NCBI GenBank assembly: GCA_902756345.1
Contig: CACVQR010000004.1
Coordinates: forward strand, 1 to 64,000
Reading direction: 5' to 3'
Source: Fibrobacter succinogenes
Lineage (GTDB): Bacteria > Fibrobacterota > Fibrobacteria > Fibrobacterales > Fibrobacteraceae
DNA length: 64,000 nt
Numbering within the stretch: position 1 is the first letter of the stretch; every line of letters starts with the position of its first letter. Below, piece after piece: positions 5,056-63,906 of this stretch. Both the position numbers and the translations under genes were made by a program. The notes under the pieces were generated by a model. That model was not told the origin of the DNA, did not search any database, and saw only the letters and a program-made list of their open reading frames with translations.

Positions 5056-5152
5056 GTGTCATCCTGAGTGGAGAACCGCAGGTTCGAAATCGAAGGATCT
5101 AATAAACCAGACTAGATTCTTCGACTTCGCTACGCTTCGCTCAGAATGACAC
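5056..5152. repeat. 97-bp imperfect palindrome (intergenic REP-like element)
   Basis: GTGTCATCCTGAG at 5056-5068 mirrors CTCAGAATGACAC at 5140-5152; inside, ATCGAAGGATCTA mirrors TAGATTCTTCGA. It lies just upstream of prfB and downstream of the prolyl isomerase gene. A related sequence (GGATTC, CTACGCTTCGCTTC, AGAATGAC) occurs inside the signal-peptide coding region near 8241-8290. Confidence 0.7.
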
Positions 5153-5155
5153 CAT

Positions 5156-5190
5156 TTCTAAGTTCTAAGATCTAATTACTAAGTTCTACT
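5156..5190. repeat. Heptamer array, TTCTAAG type
   Basis: Five consecutive 7-bp units: TTCTAAG, TTCTAAG, ATCTAAT, TACTAAG, TTCTACT. The last unit contains the TAG stop codon of the prolyl isomerase gene (5186-5188, minus strand). Confidence 0.75.
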
Positions 5191-6196
5191 TGCTAGCGCC
5201 GATAGCCTGCGGCGGAGTGTACTTGGCATCGAGGTACTGCACCTTGTAGACCTTTCCGAGGCCATCGAGGTAAGCCTTGAGCTGAGCCTGACGGTCCTGT
5301 TCGGCCTGCACACGCAGAATGTAGTCGATCTGATGCTTGTAGCTTTCGTACTTGCCGTCGTTCTTTTCGGTCAGCATAAAGATGGCGATACCGTCCTTGT
5401 CGGTATACGGTTCGGTGATTTCGCCGACCTTGACCTTGTTCACGGCCTTCACAAAAGCATCGCCCTTGGACTTGGCAACAAACTTAGCCATCACGCCACC
5501 AGTCTTCTTGGCGGTCTGGTCGTCGCTGTACATGGCAGCGAGCTGTGCAAAGGTAGCCTTCTTGCTGCGCACCTGTGCGGCAAGGCCCTGCAACATCACC
5601 TTGGCGTCTTCGATTTCCTGCTTGGACTTGCCCTTGGTGTAAATCACGATGCGGGCACCGCTAATGGAATCGTTAATGGCCACCTTCGTCTTGTTGAGTT
5701 CCCAAAAAGCTTCCTTCTGCTTTTCGGTCGGATCCTTCGGGTACGGCACCTTCTTTTCGAGGATTGCTTCGCTCTTCAGCTGGTCTTCGATCTTTTCCTT
5801 GAACTGGGCCATGGTGGTGTTAGACTTCTTGAGTTCCTTCTGGAAGGCGTCTTCGCTCGGGAACTGGGACTTGAAGAGTGCGGTCAGGCTGTCGACCTTG
5901 CCCTTGGAGACCTTGATGCCCATCTTCTTGGCTTCGAGCTTGATGAGTTCCTGACCGACCAGGTTGTCGATCACGGCATAACGGAGCTGGGTCATGGTCT
6001 TGTCGTCGATTTTCTTGCCGCGGAGCTGCTGTTCGCCGAGCATCTTGGCGAGGCTATCGATTTTACCTGCAGAAATACCGACTTTTTCCACACGGATTAC
6101 ATCCATGCTTTTGGAATTCAACAACTGAGCAGAAGCGATACCGGCAGCCAAAGCGACCGTCAGGATACCGCGAGAAACAAATTTAAAAGAACGCAT
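5186..6196 (-). CDS. Periplasmic PpiC/SurA-type peptidyl-prolyl isomerase
   Basis: A 336-residue protein with a Sec signal peptide (about residues 1-23, ending ASA-Q), an N-terminal helical SurA-like region ('QLRYAVIDNLVGQELIKLEAKK', residues 65-90) and one parvulin domain at about 180-285 ('GARIVIYTKGKSKQEIEDA...', 'FAQLAAMYSDDQTAKKTGGVM', 'VGEITEPYTDKDGIAIFML'). It is likely to fold or chaperone exported and outer-membrane proteins in the periplasm, fitting the many beta-barrel genes nearby. The start has AAGGA upstream and a TATATTTA box at 6225-6232. The usual His in 'ArHIL' is replaced by 'ARIVI', so isomerase activity is uncertain; a chaperone-only role is possible. Confidence 0.85.
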   Translation of the reverse strand: MRSFKFVSRGILTVALAAGIASAQLLNSKSMDVIRVEKVGISAGKIDSLAKMLGEQQLRGKKIDDKTMTQLRYAVIDNLVGQELIKLEAKKMGIKVSKGKVDSLTALFKSQFPSEDAFQKELKKSNTTMAQFKEKIEDQLKSEAILEKKVPYPKDPTEKQKEAFWELNKTKVAINDSISGARIVIYTKGKSKQEIEDAKVMLQGLAAQVRSKKATFAQLAAMYSDDQTAKKTGGVMAKFVAKSKGDAFVKAVNKVKVGEITEPYTDKDGIAIFMLTEKNDGKYESYKHQIDYILRVQAEQDRQAQLKAYLDGLGKVYKVQYLDAKYTPPQAIGASK

Positions 6197-6280: not shown

Positions 6281-6533
6281 GTGAGCCATAAGCGACTCGT
6301 CTTAAGGAGTCGTGTTGGCGAAAGCGAGGCGATATCATAAGTTCTTATATGAAATAGAGCCGAGCGGTCTGTCGTGAGCCAAAGAAGACTCATATTAATG
6401 AGTCTTTGAAGGCGAGAGCGAGGCGATATCATAGGTTCTAACAAGAAAAAGAGCTCATATTAATGAGTCTTTGAAGGCGAGAGCGAGGCGATATCATAGG
6501 TTCTAACAAGAAAAAGAGCCGAGCGGTCTGTAA
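6281..6533 (+). repeat. Three joined copies of the modular GTGAGCC/GATATCA element
   Basis: Unit 1 (6281-6374) has GTGAGCC, a CGACTC/GAGTCG stem, GCGAGGCGATATCA, an ATAAG/CTTAT stem and AGAGCCGAGCGGTCT. Unit 2 starts with GTGAGCC at 6375 and has a 22-nt perfect palindrome as its first stem (about 6387-6408) and TTCT/AGAA as its second. A 65-bp segment of unit 2 (from 6389) is repeated exactly from 6454, giving a third partial unit that ends in GAGCCGAGCGGTCTGT. Stem sequences differ between units but pairing is kept. Confidence 0.8.
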
Positions 6534-12393: not shown

Positions 12394-12401
12394 GTAATAT
12401 A
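12394..12401 (-). promoter_or_regulatory. -7-like box TATATTAC, 4 nt before a start codon
   Basis: Weak match to TAnnTTTG, read on the minus strand. Its position implies transcription starting at or near the ATG at 12389. Confidence 0.25.
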
Positions 12402-12463
12402 GTAAATAGTAGAAAGTAGACAGTAGACAGTAGGCAGTAGGAAGTAGACGGTAGGAAGTAGAC
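12401..12463. repeat. Heptamer array, AGTAGAC type (9 units)
   Basis: Nine gap-free 7-bp units of pattern AGTAGNM (AGTAAAT, AGTAGAA, AGTAGAC, AGTAGGC, AGTAGGA and so on) fill the space between the zinc-ribbon gene and the stop of the DMT transporter gene. Confidence 0.85.
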
Positions 12464-12476
12464 GGGAATTAAAGGG

Positions 12477-17266: not shown

Positions 17267-17285
17267 AATTTGTACTAGAACATGA

Positions 17286-17316
17286 AAACATCCCCGCAAA
17301 TGCGGGGATGTTTTTT
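17286..17316 (+). terminator. Rho-independent terminator of the large lipoprotein gene
   Basis: AACATCCCCGCA pairs with TGCGGGGATGTT over a 2-nt loop, followed by T residues, 20 nt past the stop codon. Confidence 0.9.
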
Positions 17317-17336
17317 ATAAGAGAATAGTTCGGACG

Positions 17337-17444
17337 AACCGAGCGGTCTTTCGTGAGCAACAAAGCCCTCGGGTGTTAACCGAGGGCGGTTGCGAGAGTG
17401 AGGCGATATCACATTCTTGCGAATGATGTAGAGCCGAACGGTCT
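17337..17444 (+). repeat. Modular GTGAGC/GATATCA element, single copy
   Basis: CCGAGCGGTCTTTC precedes GTGAGC; then come a GCCCTCGG/CCGAGGGC stem, GCGAGAGTGAGGCGATATCA, a CATTC/GAATG stem and AGAGCCGAACGGTCT. It ends in TATATCGC, which overlaps the TAA stop of smc on the other strand. Confidence 0.8.
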
Positions 17445-26646: not shown

Positions 26647-26652
26647 GTAAAA

Positions 26653-26687
26653 ATGTGTGATGTGTAATGTGTGATGTGGAATGAGAG
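26653..26687. repeat. Heptamer array, ATGTGTG type (5 units)
   Basis: ATGTGTG, ATGTGTA, ATGTGTG, ATGTGGA, ATGAGAG in continuous 7-bp phase, between two divergent genes and hence in their promoter region, unlike most other arrays here. Confidence 0.75.
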
Positions 26688-26739
26688 AATCTCACATTTA
26701 GCATTGCCAGTTATAGTTCTAGTTTATAACGCTTATTGC

Positions 26740-29663: not shown

Positions 29664-29692
29664 AATCTCCCTTAACAAGCACTTATTTTTCA

Positions 29693-29724
29693 CTGTCTAC
29701 TGTCTACTGCCTACTGCCTACTTT
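29693..29724. repeat. Heptamer array, GTCTACT type (about 4.5 units)
   Basis: CACT, then GTCTACT twice and GCCTACT twice: the reverse complement of the AGTAGAC array at 12401-12463, 17 kb away. It lies between two divergent genes, just upstream of the TATATTTG box at 29729. Confidence 0.8.
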
Positions 29725-30391: not shown

Positions 30392-33058
30392 ATGAATTAC
30401 AAAGACTTAGCACTCGCCGAAGAAGAAGGCAAACTGGAAGCCGCGATAGCGGCTTCTCGCAATTTATTGATTGAAGCGCCCACCGGCTCGGGCAAGTCGC
30501 TGTTCATCCCCTACTTTTTAAGCAAGCATTGCAAAGGCCGCGTCGTCGTACTGCAGCCCCGCCGCATTGCGGCGCTCGCACTCGCACAGTTCTCGGCAAA
30601 ACTCCACGGAGAGCCCTGCGGCAAGACCGTCGGCTACCAGTTCAGGCAAGACAGCTGCAAAAGCGCAGACACGCGCATTCTCTTTCAGACCTACGGTAAC
30701 TTTCTGCAAGAGCTCTTGCACGGCAAACTGGACGCCGACTGGATTGTGTTCGACGAATACCACGAACGCAAAGCTGACATGGACTTGTTGTTCGCGTATT
30801 TTAGACGAGAGAACGCTCGCAAGCTCGCTACAGACGAGAGACGAGAGGGACCGCGTGTGAGCCAGAGCGACCAAGCGGAAGCTGGTCGTGAAGGCGAGAG
30901 TGAGGCGATATCACATTGCTTTAGTAACAATAGAGCCGAACGGCCTCGTATCGCAGTAATGTCGGCGGCGTTGAACCGTTCCGAACTCGAAACGGTTCTC
31001 GGCGTCAAGTGTCTGAGTCTCGGTCACCCGCTCTACCCCGTGCAAATTATCAACCAGACGCCTGCCACGGGGAATTCGCTTGTTTCGGGCGTTGGACTTG
31101 ACGCCGAAGTGGTGCGGGCGCTCCGCACACTTTACCGCAACAACATCTGGCAGACCACGCTGGTATTCTTACCGGGCAAAGCCGAAATCGCCCGCTGCCA
31201 CACCGCCGCCGCCGAAGCACTCGGCAACAACTGCGCCGAATTCCTGGAACTCTACGGTGGCCAAGACCGCGAAACGCAAGACCGCATCTTCGAAGTCACC
31301 GAACGCCCGCGCGTGATTTTCACGACAAACATCGCCGAAACATCCATCACCGTTCCAAACGTCACGGGCGTTGTCGATAGCGGTATCGAACGTGTAAGCA
31401 TCTACGACGACAGCGAAAAGGTGAACGTCCTGCGCACGCTTCCCATTTCGATGCAGAATGCAATCCAGCGCAGCGGCCGTAGCGGCCGTACGCAAAACGG
31501 TTGCGCCATTCGCCTCTGGAGCGAAGAATCCGAAAAGCGCATGCCTCAAGGAATCGTGCCCGAAGTCTTGCAAATCGAGCCCTCGGAATTGATTCTGCAG
31601 AAAGCGGCGTTAGAGGATCTCGGCGAGGAGAGGAGATCCCGGATCAAGTCCGGGATGACAGATGGCATAGTACTTCCGACGGCGATTCCGGAAGCCCGCG
31701 AAAAGACGGCGACAGCACTCCTTGAAAATTTCGGGATGCTTCAGGACGGCGCCATCACCGAACTTGGCCTCAAGGCAATCCGCACGCCCGTTTCCAGCAT
31801 TCCGCTCGCGCTGCTCCTTGCATCGGCAAAAAACAAAGAAGACCTTCCCGACTTGCTCCTCGCCGCGCTCGCCTGGATTCATTCCGGCACCGAATTCTTG
31901 CAGAAGTCCAAAGTCGCCTACGACATTCTGACTCTCGCAAGCGACACGTTATCTAAAAGCCGCGACATTCCCCGCGAAGTCAGCTTTACGCTCCGACAGC
32001 TCCGCGACTACCGCGAAAAAATTGCAAGCCCCACACCCCAAAGGTGCGAAGCACCGACCTCAGACCTCATAGCGCATAGCCTTCTTAAGGCTTTCCCGGA
32101 CAGGCTCGCTACTCCGAGCGGCAACGCCTATAAGCTCGCCAACCAGAACGTGATTCGCCTGCAAGTTGCAGAACCGCCTTATGCGATTCTCGCCCTCAGC
32201 ATGCTCCGTACCGGCGGCGGTAGCAAATCGGAACTTAAAGTTAATTTATACGCACCTATCGCCAAGGAACTTCTCGGCGGCGAAAGTGCCAAGACCCGCT
32301 ACGAACTCTTGTGGCGCAGCGGTCAAGAAAGATTCATCGGTGTCGAAATCAGCGAATCCGAAAACGCCGACGGCTCCACTACCGAACTTTCCCGCAAAGA
32401 AATCCTCACACAAGAAGCTTCGCCTAAAGTTCTTGAAGAACTCAAGAAGCTTACCGTTGATGCCTGGCGCGAAAAAATCGAGAAAGAAAACTGGAGCGGC
32501 AAGTTCCTGACCGAAGCCGTGCAAACGCAGCTCATCAAAATGCGTCTTGCAGCCAAGCTCTATCCGGAATACGGCCTTCCCGAATTCAACGAAGAAGACA
32601 TGGAACTCATCTTCGATGAATTCGCAGAAGGCAAGTTCCTGCTCCGCGACATAAACGAAGACCGTTATAGGAACATTGTCGAAGATTACTTTGGCAAGTC
32701 CATGCTGCAATGGCTAGGCAAGACATTCCCCGACCACTACGTGCTCCCCAACGGCAAACGCGCCCGCTACAGCTATCAAGAAGTCGCTGTCAGTGACGAC
32801 GGAAAATCTGTGCAAAGCATCGAAGGCGTCCTCGTCGAAATTTCGGCCCGCATCGAAGACTTGATGCAGCTCCGCGGCGAGCACAGAATCGCCGACGGCA
32901 AATTAAAAGTCCGGTACGACATTCTGGCACCGAACTTCCGGACGATTCAAAAGACATGGGACTTGACCGGATTCTGGCAAAACACTTATGCCGAAGTCCG
33001 CAAGGAGCTGCGCGGTCGCTACCCCAAGCATCCCTGGCCCGAGAGGATTGAGCAATGA
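30392..33058 (+). CDS. hrpB: ATP-dependent helicase HrpB, with repeat-derived insertions
   Basis: 888 residues, a DExH-box helicase. Walker A 'APTGSGKS' at about 29-36, the DExH motif 'DEYH' near 119-122, 'VMSAALN' (motif III) near 190, 'TNIAETSITVPNVTGVVDSG' near 312 and 'QRSGRSGR' (motif VI) near 362; the C-terminal part is HrpB-like ('YPKHPWPE' near the end). Three in-frame repeat insertions interrupt it: residues about 137-186, 412-425 and 550-565. All motifs stay intact, so the enzyme is probably functional. The start lies in repeat sequence without a Shine-Dalgarno. HrpB's cellular role is poorly defined in bacteria. Confidence 0.9.
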   Translation: MNYKDLALAEEEGKLEAAIAASRNLLIEAPTGSGKSLFIPYFLSKHCKGRVVVLQPRRIAALALAQFSAKLHGEPCGKTVGYQFRQDSCKSADTRILFQTYGNFLQELLHGKLDADWIVFDEYHERKADMDLLFAYFRRENARKLATDERREGPRVSQSDQAEAGREGESEAISHCFSNNRAERPRIAVMSAALNRSELETVLGVKCLSLGHPLYPVQIINQTPATGNSLVSGVGLDAEVVRALRTLYRNNIWQTTLVFLPGKAEIARCHTAAAEALGNNCAEFLELYGGQDRETQDRIFEVTERPRVIFTTNIAETSITVPNVTGVVDSGIERVSIYDDSEKVNVLRTLPISMQNAIQRSGRSGRTQNGCAIRLWSEESEKRMPQGIVPEVLQIEPSELILQKAALEDLGEERRSRIKSGMTDGIVLPTAIPEAREKTATALLENFGMLQDGAITELGLKAIRTPVSSIPLALLLASAKNKEDLPDLLLAALAWIHSGTEFLQKSKVAYDILTLASDTLSKSRDIPREVSFTLRQLRDYREKIASPTPQRCEAPTSDLIAHSLLKAFPDRLATPSGNAYKLANQNVIRLQVAEPPYAILALSMLRTGGGSKSELKVNLYAPIAKELLGGESAKTRYELLWRSGQERFIGVEISESENADGSTTELSRKEILTQEASPKVLEELKKLTVDAWREKIEKENWSGKFLTEAVQTQLIKMRLAAKLYPEYGLPEFNEEDMELIFDEFAEGKFLLRDINEDRYRNIVEDYFGKSMLQWLGKTFPDHYVLPNGKRARYSYQEVAVSDDGKSVQSIEGVLVEISARIEDLMQLRGEHRIADGKLKVRYDILAPNFRTIQKTWDLTGFWQNTYAEVRKELRGRYPKHPWPERIEQ
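30801..30952 (+). repeat. Composite repeat inserted in frame in hrpB
   Basis: First part (30801-30849) is a 49-bp element shared with the aminotransferase gene at 63434-63482, encoding RRENARKLATDERREG. Second part (about 30855-30951) is the modular GTGAGCC/GATATCA element with a CGACCA/TGGTCG first stem and an ATTG/CAAT second stem, ending in GAGCCGAACGGCCT and TATCGC. Together they add about 48 residues between the DExH motif and motif III. Confidence 0.9.
31636..31656 (+). repeat. REP-like palindrome inserted in hrpB
   Basis: ATCCCGGA (31636-31643) mirrors TCCGGGAT (31649-31656), followed by GACAGATGGC. CCCGGATCAAGTCCGGG-type palindromes are common intergenic repeats. Here it is translated as 'RRSRIKSGMTDGI'. 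Confidence 0.75.
32043..32080 (+). repeat. Hairpin plus GACCTCA heptamers inserted in hrpB
   Basis: GGTGC-GAA-GCACC (32043-32055), then GACCTCA, GACCTCA, TAGCGCA, TAGC in 7-bp phase. Same design as the repeats flanking hrpB. Translated as 'RCEAPTSDLIAHS'. Confidence 0.75.
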
Positions 33059-38190: not shown

Positions 38191-38239
38191 GGTTAGTAGG
38201 AAGTTGGAAGTAGACAGTGGTTAGTGGTTGGTGGTTAGT
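38191..38239. repeat. Heptamer array, GGTTAGT/AGGAAGT type (7 units)
   Basis: GGTTAGT, AGGAAGT, TGGAAGT, AGACAGT, GGTTAGT, GGTTGGT, GGTTAGT in perfect 7-bp phase. It begins at the base next to the rhomboid start codon and runs 19 bp into coaD, encoding its last residues LLTTNH and its TAA stop. Confidence 0.85.
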
Positions 38240-38736: not shown

Positions 38737-38818
38737 AAGTAGGAAGTGAGAAGTAGGAAGTACGAAGTTATATTCAAGAAAAACTGTCTACTTCCTACCG
38801 TCTACAGTCTACTTTCTA
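38737..38818. repeat. Paired inverted heptamer arrays
   Basis: Five AAGTAGG-type units (38737-38771), a short spacer and five CTTCCTA/CTGTCTA-type units (38784-38818) in opposite orientation, so the two halves can pair into one long imperfect stem. The second half contains the rsmD stop codon (TAG, 38809-38811). Confidence 0.8.
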
Positions 38819-42816: not shown

Positions 42817-42887
42817 AAAACCTCTTTTCTTACGTCCACAAAATAGCAAATTATTTTGGCGAAAAAGCAACCCAGAGTTGCATAATC

Positions 42888-42969
42888 AATTCGGATTCCA
42901 GATTTCGAAGTTCGGAATTATAATTTTCAGCTTAAAAATCCGAATTCTGAATTCCGCATTCCGAGTTAA
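42888..42969. repeat. Paired heptamer arrays, ATTCGGA / TCCGAAT type
   Basis: AATTCGG, ATTCCAG, ATTTCGA, AGTTCGG, AATTATA (42888-42922), a spacer, then TCCGAAT, TCTGAAT, TCCGCAT, TCCGAGT (42939-42966) in opposite sense. The right edge touches the TAA stop of the helicase gene (42966-42968). Confidence 0.7.
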
Positions 42970-49196: not shown

Positions 49197-49209
49197 TGCC
49201 TGCGGCACA

Positions 49210-49292
49210 GTTGGTAGAGCTTAGTTGGTAGAACTTAGACATTTTCTAAGTTCTAAGCTCTAAGTTCTAAATTCTAAATACTACATTACCCA
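49210..49292. repeat. Heptamer array, GAACTTA / TCTAAGT type (about 12 units)
   Basis: GTTGGTA, GAGCTTA, GTTGGTA, GAACTTA, GACATTT, then TCTAAGT-type units continue in unbroken 7-bp phase to within 2 bp of the ATG at 49295. The halves are inverted (GAACTTAGA versus TCTAAGTTC), giving a long imperfect hairpin. It fills the gap between two plus-strand genes. Same family as 5156-5190. Confidence 0.85.
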
Positions 49293-53822: not shown

Positions 53823-53875
53823 CAATGAGCTCGTGCCGGAGGCGATCGACCTCGCAGCTCATAGCTCACACCTAA
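53819..53875. repeat. GACCTCG/TAGCTCA heptamer element between convergent genes
   Basis: TTAGCAATGAGCTCG at the left contains the epmB stop (TAG); then GGAGGCGATC, GACCTCG, CAGCTCA, TAGCTCA, CACCTAA. The last unit holds the TAG stop of the Omp85 gene (53872-53874). Left and right arms (TGAGC versus GCTCA) are complementary. Same design as 33053-33224. Confidence 0.75.
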
Positions 53876-55245: not shown

Positions 55246-55270
55246 ACAGATGCTATGCACACAAAACAAA

Positions 55271-55305
55271 TTCCGAACTCTGAATTCCGAATTACGCATT
55301 AGAAG
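55271..55305. repeat. Heptamer array, TTCCGAA type (5 units)
   Basis: TTCCGAA, CTCTGAA, TTCCGAA, TTACGCA, TTAGAAG in 7-bp phase. The last unit holds the TAA stop of the large OMP gene (55299-55301). Same family as 42888-42969. Confidence 0.8.
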
Positions 55306-62622: not shown

Positions 62623-63906
62623 TTACAATTCTTTCATTCGCTGCACCGCATCCTTGAAAATCGCGGGCTCTTGCAGTAAGCTGATTACCACCCAGCCGTC
62701 TTCGTCGAAATCGAAGAAGAACCCGGGTTGCACCAGCACATGCTTTTCGCGGAGCAAACGGAGCGTGAGTTCCTCGTCGTCTTCGCCGAGGCGAACAACC
62801 GCATACCAACCGCCGAGAACCTCGGGGCAGTACTTGGAGGGGAAAGCTTCGCGGAGCGTCTGCCAGTTGGCAAGCAAGCGTTCCTTGACGCGCGATTCGT
62901 AAGCGGCGGCCGCGGGCAACAGCGACGTACCCAGCGCCTGCGCCGGAGCAGATACACTCAAGTAGGCATCTTCCACGAATTCGAGCGCCGCGCGAATTTC
63001 TTCGAAGCGTTCGCGGGGCGCGTAAAAAGCCATCCAGCCGAGCTTGAGCTGCGGGGAACCCACTGCCTTGCTTAAGCCGTTCAGCCAGAAGATGGGGCAC
63101 TTGGGACCGTCTTCCGGGAGGTTGATGAAGTCGTTACCGCCCGCATCCCATAGATTATTTGATTTTTCCTCAATGGATTGCTTCCCCCCTTCGGGGGTCG
63201 CAATGACGTATTGCCAAGTACGCTTTACTTTATCCGTAAGCGCATAATCGCCGAAGACTTCGTCCACCACGAGAATCATGTCGTTTTCTTCGCAGAAACG
63301 GACCGCCGCATTCCACTCTTCGCGCGACACGCAATGCCCGGTCGGGTTATGCGGCGAAACCAGCAGCAGGATTTTCGCTTTCTCGGGAGCCGCCAACAAG
63401 CTGTCGGAATCGAGAACGAATCTAAACGCCGCGCCCTCTCGTCTCTCGTCTGTAGCGAGTTTACGAGCGTTCTCTCGTCTAAGTTGCAGAAAATAGGGCG
63501 CACATTCCAAATGTTCGAGCTGTGCAAGCGTATCGAGCAGCGGGTAGCCGGGCATCGGCGTCAGAATCACATCGCCCGGATCGCAGAATGTCTTGAACAA
63601 AACCGAATACGCTTCGCTGGTGCTCGCCGTAAGGATAATCTGACCAGCCGTAAAATTGCCCCCGCGTTCGCGGTAATACTCCACCACCGCTTCGCGGGCC
63701 GACTTCCAACCCGCCGCATCCGGATTCCAGCAACCAAAAGACTCGCGGCCTTCATCGACAGCGGCATCCAGCTCCACCGGCAGTCCCGCCTTCACAGGCG
63801 AAGAAACCGTCATGTCAATAAACGGCGCTGACTCAGCCTTCGCACGCTCCAATTCGGCAAAGAACGGCGATGGCGAAAGATCTTTAGGCAAGCGGGAAGA
63901 AAGCAT
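62623..63906 (-). CDS. Class I/II PLP aminotransferase with in-frame repeat insertion
   Basis: 427 residues. Seen: 'DMTVSSPVKAGLPV', 'ILTASTSEAYSVLFKTFCDPGDVILTPMPGYPLLDTLAQLEHLE', 'LLLVSPHNPTGHCVSREEW', 'LVVDEVFGDYAL' and 'FWLNGLSKAVGSPQLKLGWMAF' (PLP Lys in LSK). It fits the aspartate/alanine aminotransferase group; substrate uncertain. Residues about 142-158 (RRENARKLATDERREG) are a 49-bp repeat also present in hrpB, placed between the small-domain strand 'PYFLQL' and 'FRFVLDSDSLL', a likely surface loop. The start overlaps the stop of the upstream gene (TAATG). Confidence 0.9.
   Translation of the reverse strand: MLSSRLPKDLSPSPFFAELERAKAESAPFIDMTVSSPVKAGLPVELDAAVDEGRESFGCWNPDAAGWKSAREAVVEYYRERGGNFTAGQIILTASTSEAYSVLFKTFCDPGDVILTPMPGYPLLDTLAQLEHLECAPYFLQLRRENARKLATDERREGAAFRFVLDSDSLLAAPEKAKILLLVSPHNPTGHCVSREEWNAAVRFCEENDMILVVDEVFGDYALTDKVKRTWQYVIATPEGGKQSIEEKSNNLWDAGGNDFINLPEDGPKCPIFWLNGLSKAVGSPQLKLGWMAFYAPRERFEEIRAALEFVEDAYLSVSAPAQALGTSLLPAAAAYESRVKERLLANWQTLREAFPSKYCPEVLGGWYAVVRLGEDDEELTLRLLREKHVLVQPGFFFDFDEDGWVVISLLQEPAIFKDAVQRMKEL
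63434..63482 (-). repeat. 49-bp element inserted in frame in an aminotransferase gene
   Basis: Minus-strand copy of the element at 30801-30849, with two differences (CGC/CGT and AAG/AAA), both synonymous in the shared reading frame. It contains AGACGAG three times. It lacks the modular GTGAGCC part that follows in hrpB. Confidence 0.9.

Follow-up and report, generated by a model that had tools for sequence, protein, structure and literature searches.

The window analysed here, a stretch of 64,000 nucleotides from Fibrobacter succinogenes (positions 1-64000 of contig C4 of the source genome G000; 3.36 Mb, 27 contigs, 99.2% complete), carries arrays of heptamers between its genes. At 12399-12465 AGTAGAC/AGTAGGA heptamers are continuous and free of indels, and this arm takes up an 87-bp spacer bounded by two minus-strand genes, the left one with its start and the right one with its stop. 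Period-7 arrays were located by TRF at 5156, 12408, 26653, 29692, 38195, 38216, 38737, 38783, 42939 and 49244, and the array at 55269-55291 was detected at lower stringency than TRF score 30. They belong to families F1 to F4:

12399-12465, plus strand: single arm of F1 (AGTAGAC/AGTAGGA), from sequence reading and TRF
29692-29722, minus strand: single F1 arm in a divergent spacer, from TRF and an intergenic scan
38195-38239, plus strand: F1 arm running into AGTGGTT units, from TRF and the intergenic scan
38737-38818: F1 palindrome with left arm 38737-38768 and minus-strand right arm 38783-38818, from TRF
49209-49287: F2 palindrome with a left arm of AGTTGGT/AGAACTT and a right arm of TTCTAAG, from TRF and the intergenic scan
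5156-5195, minus strand: degenerate single array of the F2 right-arm type, from TRF and the intergenic scan
26652-26683, plus strand: left arm of F3 (ATGTGTG), from TRF and the intergenic scan
42887-42964: palindrome of F4 (AATTCGG) with a degenerate left arm at about 42887-42920 and a right arm at 42939-42964, from TRF and the intergenic scan
55269-55291, minus strand: single F4 arm adjoining a stop codon, from the intergenic scan

A preliminary description of this DNA had named twelve heptamer loci, nine of which were recovered by TRF at score 30 together with the lower-stringency scan. These are AGTAGAC at 12401, 29697 (minus strand) and 38737, GGTTAGT in the 38191 region, TTCCGAA in the 42888 region and at 55271, ATGTGTG at 26653, and TTCTAAG, which is degenerate at 5156 and also present at 49244. 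At score 30 TRF reports no array at the three GACCTCA/TAGCTCA loci (32056, 33211 and 53848). Position 32056 lies within an 888-aa ORF and 33211 at an ORF edge; at 53848 two units (AGCTCAT AGCTCAC) face GAGCTCG and are perhaps a decayed pair. The claim that length 7 is kept across variable units was borne out. Inside the 888-aa frame, at 32056-32110, G000, G030 and G010 differ from G003 and G005 in short repeat-type sequences at the same place.

The array positions were compared with relatives. The spacer of the 12399-12465 arm measures 32 bp without an array in G003 and G005, and 130 bp with another insert in G030. At the place of the arm at 29692-29722 a degenerate F1 stretch occurs in G005 and unrelated sequence in G003, G010 and G030. 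The palindrome at 38737-38818 (predicted fold z -2.5) is kept in G010 and G030, and G003 has a 16-bp spacer without it. The F2 palindrome at 49209-49287 is the same in G003, 14 bp shorter in G005 and absent from the 17-bp spacer of G030. The array at 5156-5195, which adjoins another dispersed repeat, is absent in G030, G003 and G005, and the F4 palindrome at 42887-42964 is absent in G003, G005, G010 and G030. The F3 arm at 26652-26683 is followed by a short inverted stretch, CACATTTAGCATT, at about 26692-26704, and its place is occupied by F1 in G010; the place of the F4 arm at 55269-55291 harbors F3 arrays in G030. Two further repeats were seen. A dispersed repeat of about 95 bp, unrelated to the heptamers, lies at 6281-6519 and 17267-17443 of the window, where it is tandem with periods of 65 and 94 bp, and at C4:169804-170143 and C1:370803-371027 of G000. 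The other, CTTCGACTTCGC...TCAGAATGACA, often stands beside heptamer arrays (window 5100-5152, C1:144098-144337, C1:319743-319898).

Short periods from 5 to 11 were scanned in 303 intergenic regions of G000 (C1:1-380000 and C4:1-184000, 564 kb), based on gene calls of a simple custom caller rather than a published one. Runs of period 7/14 were present in 52 of the 303 regions, compared with 3 for 5/10, 5 for 6/12, 1 for 8/16, 7 for 9/18, 6 for 10/20 and 8 for 11/22. Period 7 and its multiples are the sole short periods in clear excess in these regions. The preliminary description had stated that a period 7 no commoner than 6 or 8 in intergenic DNA would speak against it; since 52 regions with period 7 stand against 1-8 with any other, this test does not refute it. 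In the window plus C1:1-380000 (444 kb) 10 strong period-7 runs were found, all intergenic; periods 5, 8, 9 and 10 and shuffled sequence gave 0 runs, and period 6 gave 1, inside a gene. Throughout G000, three copies of AGTAGAC with up to 3 mismatches matched 180 times versus 0 for the reversed control, AATTCGG 217 versus 0 and CTTAGAA 118 versus 0; for ATGTGTG the control was not clean (74 versus 27). Among other Fibrobacterota G039 was positive (5 runs in 60 kb), and no period-7 runs were found in about 40 kb each of G052, G053, G055, G056 and G057.

By eye, the arrays often occupy the whole spacer, beginning at the stop codon of one gene and ending shortly upstream of the start, or of a promoter-like box, of the next. 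Arms were searched with profiles; threshold 9 passed 67 of 303 shuffled spacers, and thresholds of 11-13 were used. At 13, arms were found in 53 of the 303 G000 spacers versus 2 of 303 shuffled ones. Neighboring arms of the same family form 25 convergent inverted pairs (F1 9, F3 8, F4 6, F2 2) and 0 divergent pairs; the remaining neighbors are direct (F4 8, F3 1) or of different families (4). This inverted pairing had not been noticed in the preliminary description. In five species, of the two flanking gene edges 109 of 138 arms lie closer to the one that their G-rich strand points away from. At the outer ends, F1 arms start at AGTAG in 34 of 63 cases and F4 arms at AATTC in 17 of 23, and the phase of arm ends is not random. 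The commonest arm length is 30-32 bases, seen in 70 of 215 arms.

Stop triplets recur at +7 in 18 of 240 G000 gene ends versus 3-7 at lags of 3-6 and 8-13. Seeding of arrays by stop codons was rejected as an explanation, as this recurrence is expected if an array enters the gene end and supplies the stop, and array-poorer relatives show little of it. Arms of AGTAGGA and GTAGAC flavor number 7 and 23 next to stops, and 37 and 28 next to starts (Fisher p 0.004), with tandem plus-strand spacers being mixed. Due to this mixture, arm flavor with respect to gene side was set aside as proof.

Three genes of G000 encode members of the IVP/S23 family (23S rRNA intervening-sequence protein, PF05635), at C4:77030, C3:175777 and C8:13091. 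All score above the curated cut-off (best E 2.0e-39) and none lies in the window. In the spacer C4:76977-77392 a PF05635 frame of about 127 codons is positioned between inverted GAGTTTT-type arrays. The three genes have F1, F2 and F5 arms, F1 and F2 belonging to the two other than C4:77030. F1 and F2 arms are thus common to gene-less arrays and IVP elements of G000, and in F2 the difference between left and right arms of the IVP element recurs in the gene-less arms. The idea that a fixed right arm of 30 bases is copied was considered for F1 and dropped, as the unit-order test was not significant (order of unit variants in gene-less arms versus the 5' end of the IVP element, 7 against a shuffled mean of 4.2 and maximum of 8 in 200 shuffles). 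PF05635 was present in 34 of 60 relatives searched versus 0 of 14 control genomes. Fifty Fibrobacterota IVP loci were read; 42 had period-7 arrays upstream, 44 downstream (both counts with up- and downstream swapped for the minus-strand matches L097-L126) and 37 on both sides, a number unaffected by the swap. Control windows from the same 50 loci contained an array in 9 of 560 cases.

A scan of named genomes selected loci by the protein pattern alone, blind to arrays. It confirmed 573 relatives, of which the best 80 were analysed. Arrays were located upstream in 55 of these 80, downstream in 56, on both sides in 47 and on either side in 64; the period test detected none in the other 16. Controls gave 24 of 661, and periods 5, 6 and 8-11 were found on either side of at most 6 of the 80. 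Phylum labels were taken from record titles ('CPR' and 'SAR324' denote groups, and two loci are unplaced). Among these best 80 of 573, arrays on either side occurred in

Pseudomonadota 13/16, Bacteroidota 15/21, Bacillota 7/9, Acidobacteriota 7/7, Planctomycetota 5/6
CPR 3/5, Fibrobacterota 3/3, Cyanobacteria 2/2, Kiritimatiellota 2/2, unplaced 2/2
Poribacteria, Chloroflexota, Desulfuromonadota, Gemmatimonadota and SAR324 1/1 each
Kapaibacteria 0/1, Desulfobacterota 0/1

Array-flanked IVP genes in this sample thus come from 13 phylum-level groups besides Fibrobacterota. Of 24 records found for cyanobacterial plasmids (Nostoc, Calothrix, Anabaena, Trichormus) six IVP loci were read, and all 6 have arrays. 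In the order containing Rhodanobacter PF05635 is present in 51 of 150 genomes; 25 of 30 loci examined there have arrays on either side and 17 on both, versus 8 of 252 controls, with L298 repeating L151 of the survey. Three of these 30 have inward-reading GGGAATC, the Xanthomonas heptamer of PMC4692102. IVP was also searched for in phages, with no match.

Several IVP elements share their place with others. The junction between a lysyl-tRNA-synthetase-like and a permease-like gene holds elements of different heptamer families (L127, L112, L117, L102 and others), as do, depending on the species, the GEAAK-stop / MEGLLIL junction (L109, L103, L133, L141) and the YWIYQEIYDG / MLFLLLTIGPAF junction (L128, L131, L142). 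In the Rhodanobacter order, apparently one recurrent junction accommodates several IVP elements whose arms are GGGAATC- or GGGATTC-like (L297, L299, L305, L307), and on plasmid pANA02 of Anabaena sp. 90 a CAGGTGA-armed element lies between cas6 and cas4 (L279). AGACGAG, the arm heptamer of several IVP elements of other species, also forms perfect 16-bp AGACGAG / CTCTCGT runs inside ORFs of the window (30832-30847 and 63436-63451).

The relation between heptamers and proteins was analysed in 150 pooled loci (70 Fibrobacterota loci out of 81 places listed, and the best 80 of 573) after correction of orientation; these include L147, apparently the same place as L102, and several same-slot orthologues. 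Both arms were present in 101. The two arms of a locus match as inverted complements at 5.73 and 6.02 of 7 positions, versus 3.73 and 3.83 for arms of other loci, and inverted beats direct orientation by 45:2 and 43:5. At each end 108 of 118 arms have more G than C on the inward-reading strand. For 126 loci in which the frame was clean and one or both arrays were present, the share of IVP pairs with a heptamer similarity above 0.7 is 0.01-0.04 below 60% protein identity, 0.40 at 60-70%, 0.79 at 70-85% and 0.97 above 85%. The Mantel correlation is 0.30, and 0 of 2000 permutations were as high. This indicates that the heptamer sequence follows the IVP lineage. The earlier proposal that different heptamers share one underlying system is supported. 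F1 matches number 60-201 in the 7 congeners with an F1-armed (AGTAGGA) IVP gene and at most 38 in the other 30; the congeners share descent, and this split does not amount to 37 independent trials. Three genomes with F4-like-armed IVP genes have 44, 124 and 215 F4 matches. Outside the phylum the AGTGGTT count is a weak test: matching genomes gave 19, 13 and 65 (the last with 63 in the reversed control), and 2 of 11 non-matching genomes gave 11 and 28. Six IVP pairs with dS above 0.1 have dN/dS of about 0.015-0.10 (dN 0.004-0.144, dS 0.177-2.283), which is indicative of purifying selection on IVP; the closest pair (dN 0.009, dS 0.015) is uninformative.

Turnover was assessed in 97 spacers of C4:1-184000, of which 58 could be anchored in G030, 71 in G003, 57 in G005 and 24 in G010. 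Nine spacers that hold an element in G000 (38722, 49197, 76977, 88167, 112531, 128406, 132090, 152906 and 176952) are short in one or more relatives, ranging from overlapping genes to 48 bp, and contain no period-7 run there. Comparison of orthologous slots showed a switch of family between species at six others (26635, 55246, 101403, 113450, 116891 and 177896). Spacer 113450, for example, contains ATGTG in G000, AGTAG in G030 and AGAACTT in G003 and G005, with the left flank almost unchanged. Where the element differs, the neighboring gene often has another stop codon, and insertions replace a few target bases. No target-site duplication was seen by eye in comparisons of empty and filled sites, where short ones could be missed because the flanks differ between species, and no transposition event was observed.

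Structures of IVP/S23 proteins have been solved, and to our knowledge neither a function nor an enzymatic activity is known for them. The AlphaFold model of the F1 IVP protein of G000 is a four-helix bundle (mean pLDDT 95.9). Foldseek matched it to XCC0516 of Xanthomonas campestris (2gsc; TM-score up to 0.90 by query, sequence E 5.5e-26), to BT_0352 (2rld; TM 0.76-0.80) and to Avd of a Bordetella phage retroelement (4dwl, TM 0.79 by query length; 8ub7 and relatives about 0.75). The predicted IVP fold is shared with Avd. With Foldseek E of 0.04-0.5 and a sequence identity of about 10%, homology of the two is plausible and the sequence gives no proof of it. The preliminary description had suggested a linked reverse transcriptase or polymerase gene. 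PF00078 (RVT_1) has 0 matches in G000 and in the array-rich G004 and G010, and 9 of 37 genomes searched have one; the gene linked to the arrays is PF05635. A reverse transcriptase link was rejected due to the absence of PF00078 in G000, and the idea is echoed by the predicted resemblance of IVP to Avd, the partner of reverse transcriptase in diversity-generating retroelements.

Five features can be read directly from the sequences: the architecture, its association with IVP across many phyla, the joint variation of heptamer and protein lineage, the constraint on IVP, and presence/absence with family replacement at orthologous spacers. The arrays probably represent the termini of small mobile elements with an IVP/S23 gene at their core, together with derivatives that lack the gene. 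A full element of about 450 bp has three to five heptamers in an array, a single IVP gene and then that array as inverted complement. Every IVP lineage has its own heptamer, and the element sits between genes, often exactly between a stop codon and the next start. G000 has three IVP genes beside hundreds of gene-less arrays, many of them single-family palindromes. IVP may bind its own heptamers, as DNA or as an RNA hairpin formed by the arms, and may mobilize gene-less copies in trans with the use of host enzymes. The number seven could be the spacing read by an Avd-like IVP oligomer. Against this explanation stands the abundance of F3 and F4 (217 matches) in G000, where neither F3-armed nor F4-armed IVP genes were found, and likewise of F4 in G022 (85 matches, no F4-armed IVP gene). 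The F1 unit-order test, the 16 of 80 IVP loci without an array, the weak AGTGGTT count outside the phylum and the lack of an observed transposition event or target duplication also count against it. No IVP remnant was found inside any gene-less palindrome of the sampled stretches, so that their derivation by internal deletion is conjectural.

Heptamer palindromes of the host might pre-exist and attract IVP genes as favored sites of insertion. In agreement with such an order of events, gene-less arrays are more numerous than IVP elements, and G003, G005, G026 and G029 have heptamer arrays or matches without a PF05635 match. However, the heptamer sequence tracks the IVP lineage, the combination of heptamer and IVP that occupies the slot after the lysyl-tRNA-synthetase-like gene varies with the species (F1, AGACGAG or AGTGGTT arms), and the empty site of a relative at spacer 76977, in a comparison between species, lacks heptamers. 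Arrays preceding IVP are therefore unlikely. Selection of the arms as bidirectional terminators, mRNA ends or regulatory sites would fit their strong predicted hairpin folding (z below -2 in 29 of 34 paired elements), the terminator-like hairpin at the center of some elements and the adjoining stop codons. This is quite unlikely as well, since elements also occur between divergent genes (arms in 10 of 67 such spacers) and vanish or switch family at orthologous spacers with conserved genes.

Replication slippage alone, in which heptamer runs grow in neutral spacers under a polymerase contacting about seven bases, goes back to a hypothesis from 2007 as told in PMC4692102. The dominance of period 7 and the whole-unit differences between relatives (98, 98 and 84 bp in G000, G003 and G005 at spacer 49197) agree with it. 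Slippage explains the number of units, but not the repeated use of a few units at hundreds of places, their pairing as inverted complements of one polarity or their presence on both sides of one protein family in many phyla. As sole cause it is largely refuted and very improbable, and independent slippage at each place was rejected because shared units and inverted pairs would be left unexplained. Heptamers could also be added to both 3' ends of a break, which are then joined, by a polymerase or reverse transcriptase that uses a template of seven bases. The G-rich strand reads inward from both flanks, the target is replaced without duplication, and the two ends of an arm often carry the same short word. 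Considering the absence of RVT_1 matches noted above for G000, G004 and G010, and that palindromes with a center of 40-80 bases or an IVP gene are hard to make in this way, we give this mechanism hardly any credence.

Mobile elements built around IVP remain the preferred explanation, and together the arrays and array-flanked IVP genes suggest one overlooked mobile-element family. Among open-licence literature, searched for this link and for heptamers in general or in Fibrobacter, no paper was found that describes the IVP-heptamer link as a general rule. Heptamer repeats of bacteria have been noted for decades without an agent, and the link provides a testable partner for both the repeats and the IVP/S23 proteins, as each IVP gene is accompanied by its own candidate binding sequence at its two flanks. 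Should the elements move, they would do so in many phyla without a recognized transposase or reverse transcriptase. Spacers and stop and start codons are rewritten by the insertions, which matters for the prediction of terminators and promoters. A wider reading, which we regard as tentative and put at slightly less than an even chance, is that IVP elements are a class of bacterial mobile elements without a known recombinase, in which an Avd-fold oligomer recognizes about five short words at seven-base spacing at both ends, and that they have left the unexplained heptamers of cyanobacteria, Xanthomonas, Beggiatoaceae and others behind as non-autonomous footprints. The peak of arm length at 30-32 bases corresponds to four heptamers plus about three bases and so to five words, which would be consistent with a pentamer in which each subunit takes one; a homopentamer is what the account of the Xanthomonas IVP protein in PMC4990558 gives.

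MITEs and REP/RAYT sequences are short non-coding palindromes between genes that are perhaps mobilized by a related full element. The gene-less arrays resemble them as short scattered intergenic palindromes, and they possess terminal inverted repeats as MITEs do; like STRR-type sequences they are tandem, multi-copy and intergenic. In contrast to MITEs no target duplication was seen, and we know of no transposase for the present elements. They differ from REP/RAYT in that the Y1 transposase PF01797 is absent from G000, G006 and G010, and a RAYT link was rejected due to its absence in G000. Avd (4dwl, 8ub7), similar to IVP in predicted structure alone, works with a reverse transcriptase, of which none was found in G000. 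The preliminary description had heptamer repeats known from cyanobacteria, which is correct and too narrow, as they also occur in Xanthomonas (PMC4692102), in Beggiatoaceae and Bacteroidetes (PMC4679880) and in the 23S insert of Coxiella (PMC4990558). The TAACTGA repeats of Beggiatoaceae, cyanobacteria and Bacteroidetes share with the present arrays their scattered intergenic occurrence, a patchy distribution, strain indels in 7-nt steps and the lack of an evident mechanism; PMC4679880 reads them as possible translational-regulator sites, and its main text lacks the terms S23, four helix and intervening. GGGAATC of Xanthomonas and GGGGAYT of Nostoc are, in PMC4692102, intergenic heptamers with many convergent inverted pairs and stop-codon overlap, and they follow the same strand rule relative to genes as the present arrays. 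That study is on G-quadruplexes and generally found no association with mobile elements; here, GGGAATC accompanies the 3 of 30 IVP loci noted above for the Rhodanobacter order. The intervening sequence of Coxiella burnetii (428 nt), called selfish by its authors, carries an S23p/IVP gene, terminal inverted repeats and, upstream of the gene, heptameric direct repeats of strain-variable number (PMC4990558). It thus shares with the present elements the protein family, terminal inverted repeats and heptamers by the gene; that account does not present heptamers as a general feature of the IVP family. The Coxiella insert, however, lies inside the 23S rRNA gene and is excised by RNase III, whereas the present elements lie between protein genes (as C4:77030 in G000, L127 and L128), have heptamer arrays at both ends with lineage-specific heptamers, and are accompanied by abundant gene-less copies.
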